Positions 344-27,825 of a stretch of 64,000 nucleotides of DNA are shown one piece after another (the first letter of the stretch is position 1; each line of letters begins with the position of its first letter). The position numbers were made by a program, and so were the translations under genes. The stretch is from an uncultured Jannaschia sp. (GTDB taxonomy: Bacteria; Pseudomonadota; Alphaproteobacteria; Rhodobacterales; Rhodobacteraceae). The DNA lies in NCBI RefSeq assembly GCF_947494025.1, contig NZ_CANLTQ010000007.1, positions 1 to 64,000 on the forward strand, given 5' to 3'. Below the pieces are notes generated by a model. That model was not told the DNA's origin. It saw only the letters and a program-made list of their open reading frames with translations, and made no database searches.

Positions 344-433
344 TGGCGGAGACGAAGGGATTCGAACCCTCGAGACGGTTTCCCGCCTACTCCCTTAGCA
401 GGGGAGCGCCTTCGACCACTCGGCCACGTCTCC
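344..433 (-). tRNA. tRNA-Ser (anticodon GCU)
   Basis: A 90-nt tRNA gene with encoded CCA. The acceptor stem GGAGACG pairs with CGTCTCC, followed by discriminator G and CCA. The D-arm begins TGGCCGAGTGGTC, the anticodon stem-loop carries loop CTGCTAA (anticodon GCU, reading AGC/AGU), a long variable arm typical of class II tRNAs is present, and the T-loop is GTTCGAATC. Length and long variable arm fit serine. It lies just downstream of the L,D-transpeptidase gene on the same strand and has its own terminator at 286-305. Confidence 0.95.
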
Positions 434-10231: not shown

Positions 10232-10317
10232 GCGGGCGTGGTGGAATGGTAGACACATGGCACTTAAAATGCCTGGGCCGGAAGGCCGTGCCGGTTCGAG
10301 TCCGGCCGCCCGCACCA
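10232..10317 (+). tRNA. tRNA-Leu (anticodon UAA)
   Basis: An 86-nt class II tRNA with encoded CCA. Acceptor stem GCGGGCG pairs with CGCCCGC, followed by discriminator A and CCA. The D-arm has GGTGGAATGGTAGACAC, the anticodon loop is CTTAAAA (anticodon UAA), a long variable arm follows, and the T-loop is GTTCGAGTC. It lies between the TPR protein and the acetate kinase operon, with no integrase or attachment duplication near it. Confidence 0.95.
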
Positions 10318-16928: not shown

Positions 16929-17037
16929 TCGCCCGCGTCCGGATCTGTCGCGTGAAGTCTCCCCCAGGCCGGAGGCCGACGGCTGCGACCTGTCCGGCGC
17001 GGCCGTGCCCCGCATCCCCCCCGCCGCGCAACGTTCG

Positions 17038-18039
17038 TCAATCGGGCGTCGGCGCCTCGGGATGGATCAGGCCTTCGGAACGCAGCGCCTCCCAGAAGGC
17101 GGGCGCGACGGCGTGGGTCATCGCGGCAATGTCGTCCACCGCTTCGTCCGGCCGGCCGAGGCCCACCACGACCGCCTGCGCGACGTCGGGCGCGGCCGCG
17201 AATTGCAGCGCGGCGGCGAGCATGTCGACGCCGTGGTCAAAGGCGAGCTCCGCGATGCGCCGACGCTTCTCCATCCGGTCCTTCGAGATCACGGTGTTTC
17301 CGTCGCCGTAATGGTAGCGATGCACGCCCGCGAGGAAGCCCGCGTTCAGGGCGGAACCGACGACAAAGGCGTTGTCGCGTTCCCGCGCCTTCGGAAAGAC
17401 GTGCTCGACCGCGTGATCGTGCTCGATCAGGGAATACTGGCTCGCCAGCAGATGCAGGTCGGGATCCGAATCCTCCATCGCCTTCAGGATCGGCTCCGGC
17501 CGGTTCACGCCCATGCCCCAGGCCCGGATCACGCCCTGGTCGCGAAGCTCGCAAAGCGTGACGAAGCAGCCCTCCACCGCCTCGGGCCAAAGCGCCTCCC
17601 ACGGTTGCGGCAGCGCGCCGTTGTCGGGCGACAGGTCGTGGACGAAAACCACGTCGATCCGGTCGAGCCCGGTTCGCTGCAATGTGTCCTCGATGGAGCG
17701 CAGCGTGCCGTCGCGGCTGTAGTCGTAGATCTCCGCGTTGGGGGAGGGGGAGAACGGCATCATCTTCCGGTCGCGATGCTCCGGCGAGGCCTTCAGCAGC
17801 CGTCCGACCTTGGAGCTCAGCACGAAGCTGTCGCGCGGCTGCTGGTGCAGGAACCGCCCGTAGCGCCGCTCGGCGAGGCCCAGCCCGTAATGCGGCGCGA
17901 CGTCGAAGTAGCGGATGCCGGCCTGCCACGCCGTCTCGAGGGTCGCCTGGGCCTGATCGTCGGTCGTCAGGCCGAACTCGTTGCCGAGCGCGACGCCCCC
18001 CATGCCGAAGGCGTGGGGCAGGGTGTATCTCTCGGTCAT
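17038..18039 (-). CDS. Aldo/keto reductase (D-threo-aldose 1-dehydrogenase-like)
   Basis: A 333-residue NAD(P)-dependent TIM-barrel oxidoreductase. It resembles D-threo-aldose/L-fucose 1-dehydrogenases: MGGVALGN at the start, the catalytic Asp-Tyr in YFDVAPHYGLGLAE, lysine in LSSKVGRLL and histidine in VFVHDLS, with SPNAEIYDYSRDG between strands. ATG at 18039 is the first plausible start; the upstream in-frame extension is arginine-rich and unlike coding sequence. It is divergent from the amide operon across 249 bp that contain the attenuator. No sugar transporter is adjacent, so its substrate is open. Confidence 0.88.
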   Translation of the reverse strand: MTERYTLPHAFGMGGVALGNEFGLTTDDQAQATLETAWQAGIRYFDVAPHYGLGLAERRYGRFLHQQPRDSFVLSSKVGRLLKASPEHRDRKMMPFSPSPNAEIYDYSRDGTLRSIEDTLQRTGLDRIDVVFVHDLSPDNGALPQPWEALWPEAVEGCFVTLCELRDQGVIRAWGMGVNRPEPILKAMEDSDPDLHLLASQYSLIEHDHAVEHVFPKARERDNAFVVGSALNAGFLAGVHRYHYGDGNTVISKDRMEKRRRIAELAFDHGVDMLAAALQFAAAPDVAQAVVVGLGRPDEAVDDIAAMTHAVAPAFWEALRSEGLIHPEAPTPD

Positions 18040-18119
18040 GTCGGTATCCGCTCCGTGTCTGCGTCGGGGACGAAACGGCCGCCGGCGGCGTCCCGTTCCG
18101 GCCGGTCCGCTCCGCGCCG

Positions 18120-18220
18120 CCCGCTTCGTCTGCGGGAAGGGCGCGCCGCGTCGTCGCGGCAGGCTGGACACACGGGCGGCGATCGGGGCAGGATGGCTCA
18201 AACGGCCGCTGCGGGCGGCC
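18120..18220 (+). promoter_or_regulatory. Leader hairpins of the amide operon (putative ANTAR target region)
   Basis: Several small stem-loops precede the attenuator: CCCGC-N7-GCGGG (18120-18136), GCCGCG-TCGT-CGCGGC (18145-18160) and GGCCGC-TGCGG-GCGGCC (18204-18220). In addition 18211-18217 can pair with the 5' arm of the terminator (18232-18239, one bulge), giving a possible antiterminator. Canonical ANTAR RNA targets are two hexaloop hairpins with A and G at loop positions 1 and 4; I did not find a perfect pair by eye, so the binding site is inferred from position only. Confidence 0.4.
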
Positions 18221-18232
18221 AAGGGCAATCGC

Positions 18233-18274
18233 GCCCCGCTTCACGCCGGACGACCGGGGTGGCGGGGCTTTTTT
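18233..18274 (+). terminator. Intrinsic terminator/attenuator in the leader of the amide operon
   Basis: The arms GCCCCGC (18233-18239) and GCGGGGC (18262-18268) form a 7-bp GC stem, extended by a G-U pair, around a 20-nt loop that contains its own CCGG-ACGA-CCGG hairpin. Six Ts follow (18269-18274). The run ends only 14 nt before the first start codon of the operon, with the ribosome site between. A strong terminator here, pointing into the operon, implies read-through control, as in AmiR-regulated amidase operons. Confidence 0.8.
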
Positions 18275-18288
18275 CGTTCGGGGGGACG

Positions 18289-19395
18289 ATGACGCTCAGG
18301 CTCGGACTGATCTTCTCCACGACAGGCCCCTATGCCGCGCTCGGGCAAAGCGCGCTGGCCGGGGCGCTCGGCGCGGTCGCGACGCTGCGCGCGCAGGGCG
18401 TCGGGATCGAGCCGGTGATCCGCGACCCCGGCGGCGACGCCGCGCGCTACGAGGCCGAGACGGCGGCGCTCCTGGAGGACGGGGTGCAGCACATCCTCGG
18501 CGCGATCACCTCCTGGAGCCGCAAGGAGATGATCCCGGCGCTGGAACGCGGCGGCGGACTCCTGTGGTATCCTTGTCCCTACGAGGGGTTCGAGAGCAAC
18601 GACCACGTCGTCTATCTGGGCGCCGCGCCGAACCACCACGTCCTGCCGGCCACGGACTGGATCGCCCGGCAGGGGATGCGCCGCGTCTATCTCGTTGGTT
18701 CGAACTACGTCTGGGGGTGGGAAACGCTGCGCCTGGCGCGCGAACGGCTCGAGGCGCTGGGCGTGGGGATCGTGGGGGAGCGGTTCGTGCCGCTCGGCTC
18801 CGACCGGCATGATCACGTGCTGGACGAGATCTGCGCGCAGGGCGCCGATTGCGTGATCGACAGCCTGATCGGGCCGCCCAACGCCTCCTTTCTGCGGGGC
18901 CTCGCCGCCCGCGATCCGGGGCGCGTCGGACGGGCGGGCCATGTGGTGAGCTTCAACCAGACCGAGGCCGACATCGACGCGCTCGGCCCCGCTGCCGACG
19001 GTCTCCTTTCTGCCGGCTCCCTGTTCGAGGGGGATGCGGGCGCGGCGCTGAAGGGGGCGGCGCGGCGGTTCGCGCCGAACGGGCGCGTCTCGGCTTTTCT
19101 CGCGAGCGCCTATGCCGCGGTCGAGATCCTCGTCGAAGGCTGCCGCCGCGCCGGAACGGACGCGCCCCGCGCCGTGTTCCGCGCCGCGACCGAACGGTCC
19201 GTGGCCACGGCGATGGGGGAGGTCCGGATCGACCCCGTGCTACGCCACGCCGCGATCGCCCCGCGATTGGCGCTGGCGGAGGGCGGGCGCTTCCACGTCA
19301 TCGAGCGCGCCGCGACGCCCCTGCCGGCCGATCCCTATCTCACCGCGCAGCGCGCACGCGTCCCGCCGCGCCCCGATCTGAGAATCGTGCGATGA
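18289..19395 (+). CDS. amiC: AmiC-like amide/urea-type ligand sensor (type I periplasmic-binding fold)
   Basis: A 368-residue protein of the AmiC/UrtA branch of Leu/Ile/Val-type binding proteins. In Pseudomonas, AmiC stays in the cytoplasm, binds short amides and holds the antiterminator AmiR inactive. Here the N-terminus (MTLRLGLIFSTTGPYAALG) has no signal peptide, as expected for a sensor and not for a transporter binding protein. Family-like segments are GLLWYPCPYEGFESNDHVVYLGAAPNHH, VGSNYVWGWE and VSFNQTEADI. ATG at 18289 follows GGGGGGA. The stop overlaps the ANTAR gene by ATGA, supporting complex formation. Ligand identity is unknown. Confidence 0.85.
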   Translation: MTLRLGLIFSTTGPYAALGQSALAGALGAVATLRAQGVGIEPVIRDPGGDAARYEAETAALLEDGVQHILGAITSWSRKEMIPALERGGGLLWYPCPYEGFESNDHVVYLGAAPNHHVLPATDWIARQGMRRVYLVGSNYVWGWETLRLARERLEALGVGIVGERFVPLGSDRHDHVLDEICAQGADCVIDSLIGPPNASFLRGLAARDPGRVGRAGHVVSFNQTEADIDALGPAADGLLSAGSLFEGDAGAALKGAARRFAPNGRVSAFLASAYAAVEILVEGCRRAGTDAPRAVFRAATERSVATAMGEVRIDPVLRHAAIAPRLALAEGGRFHVIERAATPLPADPYLTAQRARVPPRPDLRIVR

Positions 19396-19982
19396 GCCCC
19401 GCACCGCTGCACAACTTCGCCGGCCGGTCGGCGCTCGTCCTGCACCGCTCGGACGGGCCGGGCCGGAACATCGTCGCGCGCTGCGACCGACTTGCCATCC
19501 GGGCGCGGATGCTGCGCGGGGACGTCTCGCCCGAGGACATGGCGGGGATCGACATGGTGATCCTCGACATCGACACCGGTGACGACGGCCAGCTTCCCTG
19601 GGGGGCGGGGCAAGCGCCCGTGCCCTTGATCGGCCTCGTCGGCTCGGAAAGTCCCGGCCGGCTGGCTTGGGCGCTTGCGCAGGAGGTGGACGCCTACCTG
19701 CCGCTTTCGGCGCTGGGCAACCTGTTCTCGGCCCTGGTGATCGCGCACGAAACCTTCGCGCGAAAGGCCGAGCGCCGCCGCCGCGAGGCGCGGGCCGCCG
19801 GGCGGGCGGCCGGGCAGCTTGACGTGATCCGCGCGGTCATGGCGCTCGCGGCGACGGGCGGGGACGAGGCGGTCGCCCTGAAGCAGCTTCGCGCGATGGC
19901 GATGGTCGAACGGATCAGCCTGGAAAATGCGGCGCGACGGATCCTCTCGGGAGGCCGCGACGCACGGGCGGGCGGGCGATGA
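19392..19982 (+). CDS. amiR: AmiR-like ANTAR-domain transcription antiterminator
   Basis: A 196-residue protein, the same length as Pseudomonas AmiR. The N-terminal ~120 residues form a degenerate receiver-like domain (ALVLHRSDGPGRNIVARCDRL; DMVILDIDTGDDG; VPLIGLVGSES) and a coiled stretch (AERRRREARAAGRAAG) leads to a C-terminal ANTAR three-helix RNA-binding domain (about 135-185: LDVIRAVMALAATGGDEAVALKQLRAMAM). ANTAR proteins bind leader mRNA hairpins and stop terminator formation. The gene overlaps amiC and the next permease gene by 4 bp on each side, and a terminator sits in the operon leader, so self-control of the operon is likely. Confidence 0.85.
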   Translation: MSPAPLHNFAGRSALVLHRSDGPGRNIVARCDRLAIRARMLRGDVSPEDMAGIDMVILDIDTGDDGQLPWGAGQAPVPLIGLVGSESPGRLAWALAQEVDAYLPLSALGNLFSALVIAHETFARKAERRRREARAAGRAAGQLDVIRAVMALAATGGDEAVALKQLRAMAMVERISLENAARRILSGGRDARAGGR

Positions 19983-20863
19983 GCGCCGCCGCCGACGCGC
20001 CCGTTCGCCGGCCGCGGGGTGTGCTGCGCCAGCTCCTCGGCCGTCCGCGCGCGGCCTTCGGGCTGGCGGTCATCGCGATCATGGTCACGGCCGCGCTTTT
20101 CGCGCCGTGGCTCATGCCGCACGACCCCTTCGCGCAGAGCTTCGACGGGCTCGACCTGATGGGCGCGCCGCTGCCGCCCGGGGGGGCCTATCCGCTCGGG
20201 ACCGACCTGCTGGGCCGCGACCTCGTCTCCCGTCTGATCCTCGGCACGCGGACCTCGCTCATCATCGGCGTGGTGGCGAACGGGATCGCGGTCGTCCTGG
20301 GCGCCGGCGTGGGCATCACCGCCGGCTATTTCGGCGGCTGGACGGCGGCGATCCTGATGCGGTTCACCGATCTCATGATGGCGTTCCCGGCGCTCCTCCT
20401 CGCCATCGTGCTCGCCGCGATCTTCCAGCCGTCGCTGATGATCGTGGCGCTTGTGATCGCGATGGTGAACTGGGTGCAGATGTCCCGCGTGATCTACACC
20501 GAGACGCGCAGCCTCGCGGAGCGGGAGTTCATCCAGGTGCAACGCGCGATCGGTTCCGGCCCCCTGCGCATCCTCGGCCGGCACCTGCTGCCGCACCTGC
20601 TGTCGTCGATCATCGTCTTCGGCACGCTCGGGATCTCCACCACCGTGTTGCTCGAGGCGACGCTTTCCTATCTCGGCGTGGGGGTGCAGCCGCCGATGCC
20701 GTCCTGGGGCAACATCATCTTCGAGAACCAGACCTATTTCTCGACCGCGCCCTGGCTCGTTTTCTTTCCGGGCCTCCTGATCGTGCTCCTCGCGCTCGCC
20801 TTCAACCTCGTCGGGGACGCGCTGCGCGACGTGCTCGACCCGACGCTGAAGGGACGGCACTAA
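19979..20863 (+). CDS. ABC transporter permease, DppC/OppC type
   Basis: A 294-residue inner-membrane permease of the peptide/opine/nickel class. It has an N-terminal helix (AFGLAVIAIMVTAALFAPW), the DppC-type segment YPLGTDLLGRDLVSRLILGTRTSL and a permease EAA-like loop in QVQRAIGSGPLRILGRHLLPHLL; about six membrane helices. The ATGA overlap with amiR places transporter production directly under the ANTAR unit. The order is unusual in that the C-type permease precedes the B-type permease. Substrate is unknown; context suggests amides or amidated/acylated peptides. Confidence 0.9.
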   Translation: MSAAADAPVRRPRGVLRQLLGRPRAAFGLAVIAIMVTAALFAPWLMPHDPFAQSFDGLDLMGAPLPPGGAYPLGTDLLGRDLVSRLILGTRTSLIIGVVANGIAVVLGAGVGITAGYFGGWTAAILMRFTDLMMAFPALLLAIVLAAIFQPSLMIVALVIAMVNWVQMSRVIYTETRSLAEREFIQVQRAIGSGPLRILGRHLLPHLLSSIIVFGTLGISTTVLLEATLSYLGVGVQPPMPSWGNIIFENQTYFSTAPWLVFFPGLLIVLLALAFNLVGDALRDVLDPTLKGRH

Positions 20864-21783
20864 TGGGCGCCTACATTCTCCGCCGCCTGTTCGAGAGCGC
20901 GCTGATCCTGCTCGGGATCACCTTCGTGACCTTCGTGCTCCTCTATCTCGTGCCCGCCGATCCGGCGCGGCAGATCGCGGGCCGTTCGGCCACGGCGGAA
21001 ACGGTGGCCAACATCCGCGACCAGCTCGGGCTCAACGATCCGCTTTTCGTGCAATACGGCCGCTATCTCTGGAACCTCGCGCAGGGCGACATGGGCCGTT
21101 CCTACCTTCAACGGGCGGAGGTGGCGGACCTGATCGCCGCACGGCTTCCGGCGAGCCTCTTGCTGATGCTGTCGGCCATCGTCACCGAACTCGTCATCGG
21201 GCTCACCATCGGCGTGGTCGCGGCGCTCCGCCGCAACCGGCCGGTGGACCATTCGCTGATGATCTTTTCCTTCGTGTCGATCTCCGCCCCGCAATTCGTG
21301 ATCGGCATCCTGCTTCTCTACGTCTTCGCGGTGAAGCTCGCCTGGTTTCCCATCGGCGGCTACGGCACGGCGGCGCATTTCGTGCTGCCGTCGCTGACCC
21401 TCGGCCTGCTCGGCGCGGGCTGGTACTCCCGGATGATGCGGTCCTCGATGATCGACGTGCTCGGGCAGGACTTCGTCCGCACCGCCCGCGCCAAGGGGCT
21501 GGCGAAGCTCCGCATCGTCACGCGCCACGTCATCCCGAACGCGATCCTGCCCATCATCGCGATGATCGGGATCGACATCGGCCTCTTCATGTCGGGTATC
21601 GTCGTCGTCGAGAGCGTGTTCGGATGGCCGGGGATCGGCCAGCTCGCCTGGCAGGCCATCCAGCGCATCGACATCCCCGTCATCATGGGCGTGACGATGG
21701 TGTCGGCGGCGGCGATCGTGATCGGCAACCTGCTCGCCGACCTCGCGGCGCCGCTCATCGATCCCCGCATCAAGACCAAATGA
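20863..21783 (+). CDS. ABC transporter permease, DppB/OppB type
   Basis: A 306-residue permease that pairs with the preceding DppC-type protein. It begins MGAYILRRLFESALILLGITFVTF, contains the B-type signature DPARQIAGRSAT/LNDPLFVQYGRYL, and the EAA loop FVRTARAKGLAKLRIVTRHVIPNAILP for ATPase contact. Six membrane helices are expected. The start codon overlaps the previous stop in TAATG (1-bp overlap), so translation is coupled. A short 19-bp gap with AGAGGAGAG leads to the binding-protein gene. Confidence 0.92.
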   Translation: MGAYILRRLFESALILLGITFVTFVLLYLVPADPARQIAGRSATAETVANIRDQLGLNDPLFVQYGRYLWNLAQGDMGRSYLQRAEVADLIAARLPASLLLMLSAIVTELVIGLTIGVVAALRRNRPVDHSLMIFSFVSISAPQFVIGILLLYVFAVKLAWFPIGGYGTAAHFVLPSLTLGLLGAGWYSRMMRSSMIDVLGQDFVRTARAKGLAKLRIVTRHVIPNAILPIIAMIGIDIGLFMSGIVVVESVFGWPGIGQLAWQAIQRIDIPVIMGVTMVSAAAIVIGNLLADLAAPLIDPRIKTK

Positions 21784-21802
21784 CCAACAGAGGAGAGACA
21801 AC

Positions 21803-23428
21803 ATGAAACGTACCCTTCTGACCGGCATCGCGACGGCCGCGCTCACCGCCACGGGCGCGCTCGCGCAGGTGGACCAGAACGCCCCGCAGGGCGGCGAGAT
21901 GGTCGTCACCTACCAGGACGACGTCGCCACGCTCGACCCCGCCATCGGCTACGACTGGCAGAACTGGTCGATGATCAAGTCGCTCTTCGACGGCCTGACG
22001 GGCTACGAGCCGGGCACGACGACGCTGCGCAACGAGCTGGCCGAAAGCCACGAGATCTCCGAGGACGGCCTGACCCACACCTTCACGCTGAAGGACGGGA
22101 TCGTCTTCCATAACGGTCGCGAGATCACCGCCGAGGATGTGAAGTACTCGCTCGAGCGCGTCACCAACCCCGGGACGCGCTCCCCCGGCGCCGGTTTCTT
22201 CTCCATGATCGAGGGCTTCGACGCGTGGAACGCGGGCGAGGGCGAAGGGCTTTCGGGTGTCGAGGTGATCGACGACAAGACGGTCGAGATCACGCTGTCC
22301 CGTCCCGACGCCACGTTCGGGCACGTCATGGCGCTGAACTTCGCCTCCATCGTCCCGCGGGAAGCGGTCGAGGAATCCGGCGAGGATTTCGGCCGCGAGC
22401 CCGTCGGCTCCGGCGCCTTCCGCCTCGCCGAGTGGACGCCCGGCCAGCAGCTCGTCTTCGAGCGCTTCGAGGATTACCACCGCGAGGGCGTGCCGAAGCT
22501 CGATCAGGTGACGTTCAGCATCGGGCTGGATCCGACCGTCGCGCTGCTGCGGCTTCAAAGCGGCGAGACCGACATACCGGGCGACGGCATCCCGCCGGCG
22601 CAGTTCCTGCAGGTGATGAACGACCCGGCCCAGTCCGAGCGCGTGGTCGAGGGCGGCCAGCTCCAGACCGGCTATATCACGCTGAACACGCAGATGGCGC
22701 CGTTCGACAACGTGGAGGTGCGCAAGGCGGTCAACATGGCGATCAACAAGGATCGCATCGTGCAGATGATCAACAACCGCGCGGTTCCGGCAAACCAGCC
22801 GCTCCCGCCCTCCATGCCGGGCTATGCCGAGGATCACGAGGGCTACGCCTACGACCCCGAGGCAGCCCGGCAGATGCTGGCCGATGCGGGCTACCCGGAC
22901 GGCTTCGAGACCGAGCTTTTCGTGATGAACGTCGATCCGAATCCCCGCATCGCCCAGGCCATCCAGCAGGATCTGTCGGAGATCGGCGTGACCGCCGAGA
23001 TCCGCTCGCTCGCGCAGGCCAACGTGATCGCGGCCGGCGGCGAGGCGGACCAGGCGCCGATGATCTGGTCGGGCGGCATGGCCTGGATCGCGGACTTCCC
23101 GGACCCGTCGAACTTCTACGGCCCGATCCTCGGCTGCGCCGGCGCGGTGCCGGGCGGCTGGAACTGGGCGTGGTACTGCAACGAGGAGATCGACGCGCGC
23201 GCGGCCGAAGCCGACGCGATGACCGGCGAGGGGCAGCAGGACGCCCGCGAGGAGGCCTGGCGGCAGATCTACCTCGACATCATGGAGGACGCGCCCTGGG
23301 TGCCCGTCTTCAACGAGCAACGCTTCACGCTCCACTCCGAGGGCGTGGGGGGCGACGACGCCCTGTTCGTCGATCCGGTCCACATCCCGGTGAACTACGA
23401 CTACGTCCATTCGACCGAGGCCCGGTAA
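21803..23428 (+). CDS. ABC transporter substrate-binding protein, family 5
   Basis: A 541-residue periplasmic binding protein (SBP_bac_5 family) with a Sec signal peptide (MKRTLLTGIATAALTATGALA-Q). Family signatures are DVATLDPAIGYDWQNW near the mature N-terminus, GLTHTFTLKDGIVFHNGREITAEDVKYSLER, and PVGSGAFRL. Ribosome site AGAGGAGAG precedes the ATG. The protein delivers ligand to the two permeases encoded upstream; the operon thus has both a secreted binding protein for uptake and a separate cytoplasmic AmiC-type sensor. Ligand class (di/oligopeptide, amide, glutathione-like) is not decidable from sequence. Confidence 0.93.
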   Translation: MKRTLLTGIATAALTATGALAQVDQNAPQGGEMVVTYQDDVATLDPAIGYDWQNWSMIKSLFDGLTGYEPGTTTLRNELAESHEISEDGLTHTFTLKDGIVFHNGREITAEDVKYSLERVTNPGTRSPGAGFFSMIEGFDAWNAGEGEGLSGVEVIDDKTVEITLSRPDATFGHVMALNFASIVPREAVEESGEDFGREPVGSGAFRLAEWTPGQQLVFERFEDYHREGVPKLDQVTFSIGLDPTVALLRLQSGETDIPGDGIPPAQFLQVMNDPAQSERVVEGGQLQTGYITLNTQMAPFDNVEVRKAVNMAINKDRIVQMINNRAVPANQPLPPSMPGYAEDHEGYAYDPEAARQMLADAGYPDGFETELFVMNVDPNPRIAQAIQQDLSEIGVTAEIRSLAQANVIAAGGEADQAPMIWSGGMAWIADFPDPSNFYGPILGCAGAVPGGWNWAWYCNEEIDARAAEADAMTGEGQQDAREEAWRQIYLDIMEDAPWVPVFNEQRFTLHSEGVGGDDALFVDPVHIPVNYDYVHSTEAR

Positions 23429-23432
23429 GCCC

Positions 23433-24374
23433 ATGTGCAAGCATTGCGACTACACGATCCACGGGCGCCATCACCACGGCTGGGACAATTCGATCCCGCC
23501 CGCCGAGACGGTGGCGCCGGGAAGCCGCATCCACTTCCGCTGCCTCGACAGCTCCGGCGGTCAGTTCACGCGGGAAAGCACGACGGCGGACGTCCCGAAG
23601 CTCGATTTCGATCTCATCAACCCGGTCACCGGTCCCGTCTTCGTCGACGGGGCCGAGCCGGGGGACGTGCTCAAGATCACGCTGGAGGCGTTCCACCCGT
23701 CGGGCTTCGGCTGGACGGCGAACATTCCGGGCTTCGGACTTCTGGCCGACCAGTTCCCCGACCCGCATCTGAAGATCTGGGACTACGACGCGGACAGCCT
23801 CGCGCCCGCGCTGTTCTCCGACATCGCGAAGGTGCCGCTCAAGCCCTTCGCGGGAACGATCGGCCTCGCCCCGGCGGAGGCTGGGCACCATTCGGTCGTC
23901 CCGCCCCGTCGGATGGGCGGCAACCTCGACATCCGCGACCTCGCCGCGGGGACCACGCTCTACCTGCCGGTGGAAGTGGCGGGCGCGCTGTTCTCCATCG
24001 GCGACACCCACGCGGCGCAGGGCGACGGCGAGGTCTGCGGCACCGCGATCGAAAGCCCGATGGACGTGGAGGTGACGCTCGACCTCATCAAGCAGGAGCG
24101 ACTCGCCAATCCGCGCTTCACCACGCCGGGCCCGGTCACGCGTCATCTCGACGCGAAGGGCTACGAGGCGACGACGGGCGTCGGGCCGGACCTGATGGCG
24201 GGCGCGCGGAACGCGGTCTCGGCAATGGTCGACCTTCTGTCGAAGGAGCACGGCTTCTCGGCGGAGGACGCCTACCTGCTCTGCTCCGTCGCGGGCGACC
24301 TGCGGATCTCGGAGATCGTCGACATGCCGAACTGGATCGTGTCCTTCTACTTCCCCCGCATCGTCCTCGAATGA
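23433..24374 (+). CDS. Acetamidase/formamidase family amidohydrolase
   Basis: A 313-residue FmdA/AmdA-family enzyme that hydrolyses small amides such as formamide or acetamide to the acid and ammonia in the cytoplasm. Visible features are HHHGWDNSIPPAETVAPG at the N-terminus, the GPVFVDGAEPGD motif, GTIGLAPAE, GGNLDIRDL and GDTHAAQGDGEVCGTAIE, typical metal-site and fold signatures. No signal peptide. It starts 4 nt after the binding-protein stop and overlaps the ATPase gene by ATGA. Its position inside a transporter operon with an AmiC/AmiR pair links uptake to amide cleavage. Confidence 0.92.
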   Translation: MCKHCDYTIHGRHHHGWDNSIPPAETVAPGSRIHFRCLDSSGGQFTRESTTADVPKLDFDLINPVTGPVFVDGAEPGDVLKITLEAFHPSGFGWTANIPGFGLLADQFPDPHLKIWDYDADSLAPALFSDIAKVPLKPFAGTIGLAPAEAGHHSVVPPRRMGGNLDIRDLAAGTTLYLPVEVAGALFSIGDTHAAQGDGEVCGTAIESPMDVEVTLDLIKQERLANPRFTTPGPVTRHLDAKGYEATTGVGPDLMAGARNAVSAMVDLLSKEHGFSAEDAYLLCSVAGDLRISEIVDMPNWIVSFYFPRIVLE

Positions 24375-26143
24375 GCGGGGCCGACGACACCGGACGGGGC
24401 GGTCGCCGCCCCGTCCTTTCGGTCCGTGACCTTTCGGTGCAGGTCGCGACCGAGGCGGGCGCAAAGACCGTCCTCGACGGCCTGTCCTTCGACATCGCGG
24501 CGGGTGAGACACTGGCGCTCGCCGGGGAGAGCGGGTCGGGCAAGTCGATGACGGCGCTGGCGATCATGGGCCTGCTGCCGAAGCCCATGGCCCGGATCGC
24601 GGGCGGCTCCATCCGGCTGGGCAAGACGGAGCTCACCACGCTCGACGAGACCGACTACCGCCGCATCCGCTCGGCCCGGATCGCGATGATCTTTCAGGAG
24701 CCGATGACCTCGCTCAACCCGCTCATGCGCGTCGAGCGGCAGCTTTGCGAGGTCCTGCTCGAACACGGCGTCTGTTCCCGCCGGGAGGCGCCCGGCCGGG
24801 CGCTGCGATTGCTGCGGGACGTCCGACTGACCGAGCCGGAGCGGCGGTTGAGGCAATATCCGCACGAATTGTCGGGCGGCATGCGGCAGCGGGTGATGAT
24901 CGCGATGGCGCTGGCCTGCGAGCCGGAGATCCTGATCGCCGACGAACCGACGACCGCGCTCGACGTGACGGTGCAGGCGGAGATCCTCGACCTCATCCGC
25001 ACACTCCAGCGCGAGCACGGCACGGCGGTGCTCATGATCACCCACGACATGGGCGTGGTGGCCGAGATGGCCGACCGGGTCGTCGTCTTGCGCGCGGGGC
25101 GCGAGGAGGAGCAGGCGCCGGTCCGCGACCTCTTCGCGGCGCCGCGCACCGATTACGCCCGCACGCTCCTCGCCGCCGTGCCCCGCCTCGGCACCGCGCC
25201 CGCGCGCCCCGAGCGAGGGGAGGCGCGGCGGGTCGTGGAGGTGGACGACCTCTCTGTTCGCTTCGACCTGGCGGGTGGCCTGCTCAACCGGACGGTGGCG
25301 CGCGTCCACGCGGTGGAGGGCGTGTCCTTCCACATCCGCGCGGGCGAGACGCTGGCGCTGGTGGGTGAGTCGGGCTGCGGCAAGTCCACCATCGGCAAGG
25401 CGCTTCTGGGCCTTGTCCCGTGGGACGGGTCGATCCGCGTCGACGGGGCGGAGACGCGCGGCCGTTCGCGCGCGGCCATGCGGCCGGTGCTGCGCGACAT
25501 CCAGATGGTGTTTCAGGATCCCGGCGCCTCGCTCGATGCGCGGATGCCGGTGGGCGCGCAGGTGACAGAGCCGATGCGCGTCCACGGTCTTGCCACCGGG
25601 TCCGAGCTGCGCGACCGGGCGGAATGGCTGTTCCGCAGGGTCGGCCTCTCGTCCGACATGCTGCGCCGCTACCCGCACGAATTCTCCGGGGGGCAGCGGC
25701 AGCGGATCTGCATCGCCCGCGCGTTGAGCCTTCAGCCCAAGGTCATCGTCGCCGACGAGAGCGTCTCCGCCCTCGACGTGAGCGTGCAGGCGCAGGTGCT
25801 CGACCTGCTGCGCGAACTTCAGGAGGCGGACGGGCTGTCCTATCTCTTCGTCAGCCACGACATGGCGGTGGTGGAGCAGGTGGCCGACCGGGTCATGGTC
25901 ATGCGGCTGGGCCAGGTGATGGAGGAGGGGCCGCGGGACGCCGTTCTGCGCGACCCCCGCCATCCCTATACGCAGCGCCTTCTCGCCGCCGTGCCGGTGC
26001 CCGACCCGACGCGGCGCCGCGCGCCGATGCCCGACGCGTCCGGCGTCGAAGCGGCCAGCCCGATCTTTCCCGTGGGTGCCGGCCCCGCCCGCGTCGCGCT
26101 GGAGGAGGCGGGGCTCGGCCACCGCGTCGCCCGTCCGGCGTGA
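24371..26143 (+). CDS. Fused double ABC ATPase (DppD-DppF type)
   Basis: A 590-residue protein joining the two ATPases of a peptide-type importer. Domain 1 (about 15-275) has Walker [10 protein letters not shown], signature LSGGMRQR and Walker [13 protein letters not shown]; domain 2 (about 290-560) has [17 protein letters not shown] and VIVADESVSALD. Both have the oligopeptide C-terminal extension (PRTDYARTLLAAVP, PRHPYTQRLLAAVP). Such fusions are known in proteobacteria. It overlaps the acetamidase gene and the M14 gene by 4 bp each and would energise the permeases at 19979-21783. Confidence 0.95.
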   Translation: MSGADDTGRGGRRPVLSVRDLSVQVATEAGAKTVLDGLSFDIAAGETLALAGESGSGKSMTALAIMGLLPKPMARIAGGSIRLGKTELTTLDETDYRRIRSARIAMIFQEPMTSLNPLMRVERQLCEVLLEHGVCSRREAPGRALRLLRDVRLTEPERRLRQYPHELSGGMRQRVMIAMALACEPEILIADEPTTALDVTVQAEILDLIRTLQREHGTAVLMITHDMGVVAEMADRVVVLRAGREEEQAPVRDLFAAPRTDYARTLLAAVPRLGTAPARPERGEARRVVEVDDLSVRFDLAGGLLNRTVARVHAVEGVSFHIRAGETLALVGESGCGKSTIGKALLGLVPWDGSIRVDGAETRGRSRAAMRPVLRDIQMVFQDPGASLDARMPVGAQVTEPMRVHGLATGSELRDRAEWLFRRVGLSSDMLRRYPHEFSGGQRQRICIARALSLQPKVIVADESVSALDVSVQAQVLDLLRELQEADGLSYLFVSHDMAVVEQVADRVMVMRLGQVMEEGPRDAVLRDPRHPYTQRLLAAVPVPDPTRRRAPMPDASGVEAASPIFPVGAGPARVALEEAGLGHRVARPA

Positions 26144-27825
26144 CCCCGCTCGACGAGACGTTCCCCCGCGCGCTGGACGCCTTGCTGTCCGGGGCGACGA
26201 CATTGTGGCTGTTCGAGGACGGGGCCACCCGCGCGGCGGCGGAGCGGAGCGCGGCAGAGGCCGGGCGCGCGGTCCGCATCCGCTCGGCCTACAAGACGCT
26301 GCTCCACGACGTGCTGGAGGACGGGGTGCTCGACGGGGCGCGGCGGGCGGTGATCCGGTATCCCGTCCTGCCGGGCGTGGCAGCCGACAGGTTCCGGCTG
26401 GAATGCTACCCGCTCCACGCTCTGGTGCCGGATTGCGAGATCGCGTTCGTGCCCGATCCGCAGGACGGCCCGGGCCTTCCCGTCTACACAGTGGAGACGG
26501 AGGACGCGCGCCACAGCGTGCCGGTCCCGGTGCGCCGGCGGGCGGGGGCGGACGGGCGGACGGTGCTCGGCGCCTGCGGCTGGGCCGCACGGGGCGACGA
26601 AGGCATGCCGCTCGAAACCGAATACGAGGCGATCTTCGAGCGAGCCTGCGCGGCGATGCGTGCGCTGCCGCCGGACCCGGCGGCGCCCGACGGCCCGTTC
26701 TTTCCGCGCCTCGATGTCGAGGTCACACTGCCAGTGGCGGACATGGTCCTGCCGGTCGGGCACGAGCGCATCTCGCTCGCGGAGGCGATGCACGAGGAAA
26801 TCTACTTCGCCGGGCTCGAGATATTCCGTCAGCGGCTGGGCCTGCCGCCGGGCGAGCGGAGCGTGCGCTGCGGCCAGATAGTCCCCCGCGTCGTCATCGG
26901 CGACGTGCCGCGCCTGCAGATGCGCCTGAACGCGCCGGAGATCGAGCCGCCCGCGCCGGCTTGCCCAGAGCCGCCCGACCTCGGCACGGTCTCCCATTGG
27001 CTGAGCCCGGCGGAGATCGCGGGCCATCTCGACCGGATCGGCGGCGTCCCCTTCGCAGGTCGCTCGCGACAGGGCCGGGCCATCCCGGGCCGGTTCGTGA
27101 AAGGCACGGGCCGCGCCGCGCTGGCGATCTCCGGCGGGCAGCATGCCAACGAGAGCACGGGCATCGTCGGCGCCCTGCGCGCCGCACGCGACCTCGCCGC
27201 CGAGGGCCGCGCGAGCTTCACCGTCACGCCGCTCGAGAACCCCGACGGCTACGCCGTGTTCCGCGCGCTTTGCCGCGACCGGCCGCACGACATGCATCAC
27301 GCCGCCCGCTACACGGCGAGCGGCGCCGATCTGGGACATGCCCGGGACTGTCCGGAACGGAACGTCCGCGACCGCGCGCGGGCGCATCTGTCGGCGGAGG
27401 TCCATCTGAATTTGCACGGCTACCCGAGTCACGAATGGACCCGCCCGCTTTCGGGCTACATCCCCGAGGGATTCGCGGGCTGGACGGTCCCGAAGGGCTT
27501 TTTCCTGATCCTGCGCCACGCGCCGGAGGCGGCGGCGCTCGGCCGATTGGTGCTCGACGCGGCGCTCGACGCGCTTGCCGCCTGCCCGGAAATCGCGGCG
27601 CAGAACCGCCGCATGTTGTCGCTCTACGACCGTTACGTCTCGGAACGTGCGTTCCGGGTCCATGCGGGCTGCGTCCCCTATGTGACCGGCGTCGAGGAAG
27701 GGGCGGACTATCCTGTGACGCTGATCACCGAGGCGCCCGACGAGACGGTCGACGGCGCGGCCTTCCGCCTCGCGCAGGCGGCCCATGCCCGGGTCGTCTC
27801 TGCCGTGGCAGCGGTGATCGGCTGA
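26140..27825 (+). CDS. M14-family zinc carboxypeptidase-like protein, cytoplasmic
   Basis: A 561-residue protein with a C-terminal M14 metallopeptidase domain. Zinc ligands are His335 and Glu338 in GGQHANESTG, and His426 in HLNLHGYPSHEW (His422 is nearby); Glu531 in TLITEAPDET is the likely catalytic glutamate. NPDGYAVF is also typical of the family. The first ~300 residues form an extra region of unknown function with few motifs. There is no signal peptide, so it should act on imported compounds. The start is GTG at 26140, overlapping the ATPase stop (GTGA). It is the last gene of the amide operon; removal of an end residue or acyl/amidine group before or after amidase action is possible but unproven. 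Confidence 0.85.
   Translation: MTPLDETFPRALDALLSGATTLWLFEDGATRAAAERSAAEAGRAVRIRSAYKTLLHDVLEDGVLDGARRAVIRYPVLPGVAADRFRLECYPLHALVPDCEIAFVPDPQDGPGLPVYTVETEDARHSVPVPVRRRAGADGRTVLGACGWAARGDEGMPLETEYEAIFERACAAMRALPPDPAAPDGPFFPRLDVEVTLPVADMVLPVGHERISLAEAMHEEIYFAGLEIFRQRLGLPPGERSVRCGQIVPRVVIGDVPRLQMRLNAPEIEPPAPACPEPPDLGTVSHWLSPAEIAGHLDRIGGVPFAGRSRQGRAIPGRFVKGTGRAALAISGGQHANESTGIVGALRAARDLAAEGRASFTVTPLENPDGYAVFRALCRDRPHDMHHAARYTASGADLGHARDCPERNVRDRARAHLSAEVHLNLHGYPSHEWTRPLSGYIPEGFAGWTVPKGFFLILRHAPEAAALGRLVLDAALDALAACPEIAAQNRRMLSLYDRYVSERAFRVHAGCVPYVTGVEEGADYPVTLITEAPDETVDGAAFRLAQAAHARVVSAVAAVIG

Follow-up and report, generated by a model that had tools for sequence, protein, structure and literature searches.

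The closest described relatives of the leader studied here are targets of ANTAR antiterminators. In the published examples, the 3' arm of the second of two hairpins, P2, is also the 5' arm of the terminator (available part of PMC3369931), and both loops carry A at position 1 and G at position 4 (A1 and G4; available parts of PMC3369931 and PMC8164766). In Pseudomonas aeruginosa, the target of the AmiC-AmiR pair precedes amiE, and its loops have A1 and G4 (PMC3369931, same part). In the Rhodobacterales, the nasA leader is paired with NasT, and a Paracoccus mutant in hairpin I no longer grew on nitrate (available part of PMC5424462). EutV of Enterococcus faecalis combines a receiver-type domain, a coiled coil and a three-helix ANTAR domain with a hexaloop P2 that excludes a terminator; G4 stacks on Tyr164 of EutV and bonds Arg142, Lys149 and Glu160 (available part of PMC8934654). 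The hairpins of the E. faecalis eut genes are separated by a linker of 5-12 nt, and a linker cut to 3 nt hurt EutV-dependent induction (PMC3369931).

We analysed a 64,000-nucleotide stretch of DNA from an uncultured Jannaschia sp. (the window, which means the whole stretch), in which an amiC-amiR operon is preceded by a leader of similar build. Like the P. aeruginosa system, the locus has AmiC and AmiR homologues, a leader terminator, a P2 that shares the 5' arm of this terminator and amide-type operon genes, but its target precedes amiC itself, its P2 has A1 without G4, its AmiR has no Lys149 and its amidase is of the FmdA type. The NasT leaders come from related bacteria and have the same P2-terminator architecture, whereas NasT keeps Lys149 and its P2, GAGC-N6-GCTC, has G4. 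The domain order and the P2-terminator exclusion of EutV are also found here, but Arg142, Lys149 and Tyr164 of EutV are Gln, Val and Leu in the window AmiR, G4 is missing from the loop, and the linker of 2 nt is outside the range of the eut genes. The leader thus has two small hairpins with P2 overlapping an intrinsic terminator, as expected of an ANTAR target, but since it departs from the A1/G4 definition and from the eut linker range, we file it as a variant of the ANTAR target RNA, not as a standard member. Our literature search returned no paper on an A1-without-G4 variant, although the supplementary tables of PMC3369931 may list some of these leaders. The leader most likely works like the ami switch of P. 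aeruginosa, judging from this analogy.

A terminator and a mutually exclusive hairpin precede amiC

The leader lies in the intergenic region 18040-18288, between a divergent aldo/keto reductase gene and amiC. We compared it with a sample of 73 non-redundant amiC-amiR leaders, selected by a tblastn score of AmiR above 100 bits with at least one of 18 proteins in an AmiR alignment (A1); these 18 enter the sample by self-match. The features of the region are as follows.

17038-18039, minus strand: aldo/keto reductase gene, the divergent upstream neighbour of amiC
18204..18220, plus strand: P1, GGCCGC-TGCGG-GCGGCC, the 5'-terminal hairpin of the leader RNA (-12.0 kcal/mol; shuffle test)
18223..18236, plus strand: P2, the putative antiterminator hairpin GGGC-AATCGC-GCCC (MFE fold; conservation in 69 of 73 leaders)
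18227..18232, plus strand: P2 hexaloop AATCGC, with A1, C4 and G5 and no G4 (loop counts in 69 leaders)
18233..18268, plus strand: intrinsic terminator stem-loop (scan, folding, shuffles, covariation)
18269..18274, plus strand: T-tract of the terminator, six T (sequence)
18280..18286, plus strand: probable ribosome-binding site of amiC, GGGGGGA (from the sequence)

The stem at 18233-18268 consists of seven G-C/C-G pairs at its base followed by inner CAC/GTG and CCGG/CCGG stems, has an energy of -27.3 kcal/mol by itself in the energy model, and is followed by a T-tract that ends 14 nt before the amiC ATG at 18289. Among the six runs of at least five T on both strands of the window, that at 18269-18274 is the single one that follows a qualifying stem (at least 7 pairs, at least 5 of them G-C), while 15 of 20 dinucleotide shuffles of the plus strand had no such terminator site and 5 had one or two. 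A simple consensus scan of 17000-26000, which requires an unbroken stem and a loop of 3-8, did not list 18233-18268. The leader RNA 18200-18276 has a folding z of -2.5, with 4 of 200 shuffles as stable. In a MAFFT alignment of 25 leaders, chosen from the 69 that have the complete unit described below, 98.3% of cells have the 7-pair arm paired, three pairs are changed on both sides, and none of 500 shuffles attains the covariation score; pairing falls to 42-55% if the partners are shifted by 1-3 columns. This stem and its T-tract are a strong intrinsic terminator pointing into the amiC-amiR-ABC-FmdA genes. The earlier note, made from the sequence alone, had placed the stem, the six Ts and the 14-nt distance exactly so and had pointed the terminator into an amiC-amiR-transporter operon; sequence, folding, scan and downstream genes bear it out, as does the conservation of the arm in homologous leaders, the lack of which it had named as a refutation.

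P2 is formed by pairing of 18223-18226 (GGGC) with 18233-18236 (GCCC), and the 5' arm of the terminator begins with the 3' arm of this hairpin. Therefore, P2 and the terminator are mutually exclusive. Indeed, P1 and P2 make up the MFE structure of the RNA 18200-18240, and folds of the RNA from 18200 to 18240, 18245, 18250 or 18260 contain both hairpins, but the full leader folds with the terminator at -43.1 kcal/mol. If P1 and P2 are forced in the full leader, the best structure reaches -36.1 kcal/mol, a cost of 7 kcal/mol, and the base of the terminator beside the U-tract is open. The earlier note had overlooked P2 and had proposed that 18211-18217 competes with the terminator by pairing with 18232-18239; on inspection of alignment A3, that pairing is not kept in relatives, and the conserved competitor is 18223-18226 with 18233-18236.

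The P2-terminator unit is widely conserved. In a scan that left the loop letters free, 69 of the 73 leaders have GGC-N6-GCC joined to a terminator, while loops of 3, 4, 5, 7, 8, 9 and 10 nt are fused to the terminator in 2, 0, 2, 3, 0, 6 and 2 of the 73, respectively. The leaders without the full unit are L013 (identical to L120), L014, L042 and L077; L014 has a broken amiC, and in L042 P2 is seen by eye and the T-tract is absent. In a looser scan, which allowed any stem with a loop of 3-9 competing at the terminator, a hexaloop was best in 41 of the 69 and another size in 28.

A terminator at this place might instead end transcripts that arrive from upstream, as read-through or antisense RNA, and so halt stray transcription without being part of a leader. 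We consider this very improbable, in that the upstream gene faces the opposite way and the unit stays near amiC in relatives with different upstream DNA (the distance from stem end to start codon is mostly 20-40 nt and at most 104 among the leaders listed). In six relatives, the divergent reductase was not found within ~3.8 kb upstream of amiC in any, and the leader unit nevertheless stays with amiC, which counts for the attenuator reading.

Leader attenuators are often of the leader-peptide kind, in which translation is coupled to termination. For this leader, we regard such a mechanism as scarcely credible: 18200-18288 contains a single ATG, GTG or TTG, the GTG at 18259 within the terminator stem, and thus no ORF lies upstream of the terminator given the likely transcript start near 18200.

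The regulators and the operon

The operon that follows the leader contains the genes listed here.

18289..19395, plus strand: amiC, amide sensor homologue (AmiC 1PEA, E 1.2e-38)
19392..19982, plus strand: amiR, AmiR-type antiterminator with a diverged ANTAR domain (Pfam, family profile, fold model)
19979..26143, plus strand: remaining operon core, with two OppC/OppB-type permeases, an SBP_bac_5 binding protein, an FmdA-type amidase and a fused DppDF-type ATPase
26140..27825, plus strand: probable last gene, a weak M14-type peptidase match (Pfam Peptidase_M14 21.7 bits, cut-off 21.6)

The AmiR protein is below the Pfam thresholds, with 13.3 bits for ANTAR (PF03861; cut-off 27.3) and 16.1 bits for AmiR_N (cut-off 27). 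A search with PF03861 gave zero matches in its own genome and likewise zero in control genomes, and so carries no weight. A sequence search with the single AmiR protein against solved structures found none. With a family profile built from the 18 relatives, the best match is P. aeruginosa AmiR, 1QO0, at E 7.4e-21, with Rv1626, EutV and NasR next. Similar results come from structure: an AlphaFold2 model based on seven sequences (pLDDT 86, pTM 0.69) has the two AmiR chains of 1QO0 as its top two Foldseek matches (E 3.8e-8 and 9.8e-8, TM 0.56-0.61), with EutV third and fifth. Based on profile and model, the amiR product is a homologue of AmiR whose ANTAR domain has diverged, and its predicted parts are a pseudo-receiver, a coiled coil and a three-helix ANTAR domain. 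At E<=1e-15, the same profile finds proteins in 33 of a phylum-wide sample of 398 genomes.

The amiC product aligns with AmiC 1PEA from query residue 5 to chain residue 10. Since an extracellular ligand-binding receptor, 8TG1, scores slightly above 1PEA (E 4.1e-40), the neighbouring amiR is part of the grounds for the name AmiC. Inspection revealed no signal peptide, which fits a cytoplasmic receptor.

The switch is kept in front of 69 of 73 amiC-amiR operons, P2 and the terminator exclude each other, and AmiR has 1QO0 as its best match. These findings support the central proposal of the earlier note, that the terminator is a leader attenuator and that the operon behind it carries the gene for its own ANTAR-type antiterminator. 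The gene order amiC-amiR-oppC-oppB-SBP-FmdA-ATPase is the same in all 6 relatives read (L031-L036), with the ATPase cut by the locus end in this comparison. The AmiR of L031, another uncultured Jannaschia sp., is 87% identical to that of the window, and the leaders of L031 and L002 (genome G012, of the window's own genus) are identical to each other. The gene at 26140-27825 starts with GTG and overlaps the stop of the ATPase gene; it resembles M14-type zinc carboxypeptidases weakly, with a sub-threshold match to AstE_AspA as well. The regulators diverge faster than the transporter and amidase over 18289-24374: compared with L031-L035, identity is 66-88% for amiC and 61-87% for amiR, but 85-98% for the permeases, binding protein and FmdA. 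Two tRNA genes are also present in the window, at 347-433 (minus strand) and 10232-10314 (plus strand).

Transcript start, P1 and the proposed switch

Upstream of P1 are two candidate promoter boxes.

18165..18170, plus strand: likely -35 box, TGGACA (pattern match)
18189..18194, plus strand: likely -10 box, CAGGAT (weak match, 18-nt spacer)

From these boxes, we infer that the RNA starts near 18200, directly before P1. A stricter scan of 17000-26000 reported no sigma-70-type promoter. In 40 of the 69 leaders, the best TTGACA/TATAAT-like site has the end of its -10 box 26-33 nt before P2, compared to 11.6% in shuffled sequences, and the mean score of the site is 10.0 versus 7.9. The earlier note had described three small stem-loops before the terminator; the third, at 18204-18220, is in the likely leader, but the two at ~18120-18161 are upstream of the -35 box and, with a start near 18200, are probably not transcribed. 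The near relative L002 has a different sequence at ~18120-18161.

The window P1 scores 18.0 against a shuffled mean of 7.1 (p 0.013); the energy model adds a U-G pair, which leaves a 3-nt loop. Over the leaders, the best P1 score averages 11.1 compared to 5.5 for shuffles, with p<0.05 in 31 of 69. P1 stems vary widely among species, and the loops are mostly 4-7 nt with no common A1/G4. In a MAFFT alignment of 12 leaders that was not fitted to structure and in which some rows look misaligned, 76% of P1 stem cells are paired with four two-sided changes, but the covariation is weak: of 500 shuffles, 30 reached the number of two-sided cells, 91 the covariation score and 265 the number of pairs with two-sided changes. 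The case for P1 is therefore mainly that of the shuffle test. The linker between P1 and P2 in the window is AA with a 4-bp P2, and 3 nt if P2 is taken as 3 bp.

Some leaders may have no P1. The likely start is too near P2 for any P1 in L006, L007, L037, L045, L053, L057, L063, L064, L065 and L119, all ten with a -35 box of the T.GAC type, and none of the ten reaches p<0.05 in the P1 shuffle test. These ten are among 12 of the 69 leaders with a short distance of 14-20 nt from -10 to P2; as the shuffled rate of 9.6% corresponds to 6.6 of 69 and the excess is thus less than twofold, we treat absence of P1 as a lead only. NasR binds P2 alone in vitro, though poorly (available part of PMC7496416). 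If the leaders are indeed without P1, they bear on whether the 'recruitment hairpin' model, put forward for EutV (PMC8934654), is general.

Being a compact 5' RNA in which two folds exclude each other, the leader could also be a riboswitch, in which P1-P2 binds a small molecule directly. P1 differs freely in sequence and loop and may be absent from ten leaders, which makes a conserved ligand pocket unlikely; moreover, the leader is associated with amiR, and Rfam gave no match for the window leader at gathering level and none at E up to 5 in 18040-18300. We thus think it most unlikely that the RNA senses a ligand by itself.

Our preferred reading, which we hold to be highly probable, is that 18200-18276 is an AmiR-controlled transcription attenuator in which AmiR released by amide stabilises P2, allows read-through and closes an autogenous feedback loop. 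Polymerase would start near 18200, and P1 and then P2 would fold first. With no inducer, AmiC would hold AmiR inactive, as in P. aeruginosa; 18233-18239 would then leave P2 and pair with 18262-18268, and transcription would stop in the U-tract. With amide bound, AmiC would free AmiR, and the ANTAR dimer would hold P2, and probably also P1. P2 so held would withdraw 18233-18236 from the terminator, and polymerase would enter the amiC-amiR-transporter-amidase genes. As the transcript carries both amiC and amiR, the switch would be autogenous, with basal read-through supplying the regulator and induction amplifying it.

A model of the element (R1), in whose training set the window leader is included, finds one strong site in the window's own genome, which is that leader (E 1.3e-16; the next site is at 0.11). 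With no second strong site, the switch looks private to the amiC-amiR operon, and we rejected the idea of a trans regulon in this genome. In 30 other genomes, R1 matched at E<=0.01 in 26; those with none are G056 and G697, both with an amiC-amiR pair, and G062 and G066. Three of the weaker second matches were read: one (L168) has converging ORFs on its two sides and resembles an ordinary terminator, one (L170) is within a long ORF of the other strand, and the third (L169) is a plausible second leader near amiR-like and urtA-like genes of family f46. Leaders of the same build also occur outside the window's family (L111-L116, L118, L119 and L122).

Loop sequence and RNA-contact residues

The earlier note had found no perfect pair of A1/G4 hexaloops, and we confirm this for the window: P1 has the 5-nt loop TGCGG, P2 has AATCGC, and neither has A1/G4. 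Among the 69 leaders, position 1 of the P2 loop is A in 68 and G in 1; position 4 is C in 39, A in 14, T in 9 and G in 7; and position 5 is G in 45, A in 18, T in 4 and C in 2. The note had left two options, a degenerate target or a motif that differs from the known one. Mere degeneracy is disfavoured by these counts, and the comparison resolves towards a motif that appears conserved but different from the known ANTAR target, with A1 kept and G4 mostly not.

Some of the residues that contact RNA in EutV have changed as well. At positions 142, 147, 149, 160, 164 and 172 of EutV, the window AmiR has Q, R, V, E, L and M. Lys149 is found in none of the 69 AmiRs (Val in 61, Ile in 3, Thr in 2, and Leu, Ala and Met in 1 each). 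Position 142 is Arg in 68 of 69, with the window AmiR alone in having Gln; position 160 is E or D in 60; and the equivalent of EutV Met172 is kept in 67. At position 164, 54 proteins have Tyr or Phe and 14 have Leu, the latter including the 12 of the window's clade. Since the window AmiR has none of Lys149, Tyr164 and Arg142, which hold G4 in EutV, RNA binding cannot be assumed. This divergence, in which known RNA-contact residues are missing from the ANTAR domain, is what one would expect if the terminator were a fixed, unregulated attenuator that merely lowers operon expression, with AmiR acting elsewhere or vestigial. We judge that explanation improbable, because a P2 with a 6-nt loop and A1, kept in 69 of 73 leaders, is needless for a plain terminator, and its own genome offers AmiR no other good element site.

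As a positive control, we used 17 NasT loci with the same P2-terminator architecture, setting aside unrelated GAGC-N6-GCTC matches elsewhere in these loci. Lys149 is present in 17 of 17, the GAGC-N6-GCTC that occupies the same position downstream of nasT has G4 in 17 of 17 and A1 in 16 of 17, and a run of four T lies downstream of the hairpin in 16 of 17. Two remote AmiR-like loci with Lys149, L017 and L100, both have the loop AGGGCA; L169 has Lys149 and the loop AATACG, without G4. Altogether, G4 is found with Lys149 in 19 of 20 cases and without Lys149 in 7 of 69 (Fisher p 1e-12), a comparison that counts related proteins and rests largely on one deep split of the tree. As the 69 AmiR proteins form one supported clade (support 100/93), this association is not a count of independent events and is no proof of co-evolution. 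Lys149 was probably lost once. Mapping of G4 on the tree gives 8 changes, 5 of them forced by supported branches, with several gains or losses within the clade; in the largest AmiR subclade, G4 is missing in 43 of 43. More remote AmiR-like loci (<100 bits, e.g. L123, L126 and L136) have mixed leaders and were left out of the counts.

These patterns suggest a broader interpretation, the chances of which we see as evenly balanced: a large alphaproteobacterial AmiR clade may read another loop code (A1, usually with C4 and a purine at position 5) through a rewired face without Lys149, and in the window's subclade also without Tyr164, while the first hairpin would be degenerate or missing in some members, with one hairpin sufficing for antitermination. 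Searches for ANTAR targets have relied on models of a double hairpin with A1 and G4 (PMC3369931); if the clade truly uses A1 without G4, such searches would tend to miss its regulated operons. The clade also offers natural pairs of protein and loop variants for learning how ANTAR proteins choose their RNA.

Some individual leaders differ in their layout. In L169 (genome G637), the AmiR-like gene is a second one, and the leader lies between amiR and the urtA-like gene, not before amiC. Several NasT leaders (L171-L187, ~1.3 kb downstream of nasT) seem by eye to have a first hairpin with a 7-nt loop, e.g. CCC-AATGACA-GGG. In the remote AmiR-like loci L124, L125, L127 and L129, the leader has a hairpin of the GGGC-(6 nt)-GCCC type, e.g. 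GGGCAGTTCGGCCC in L124, which by eye is very roughly 75 nt upstream of the pre-terminator hairpin.
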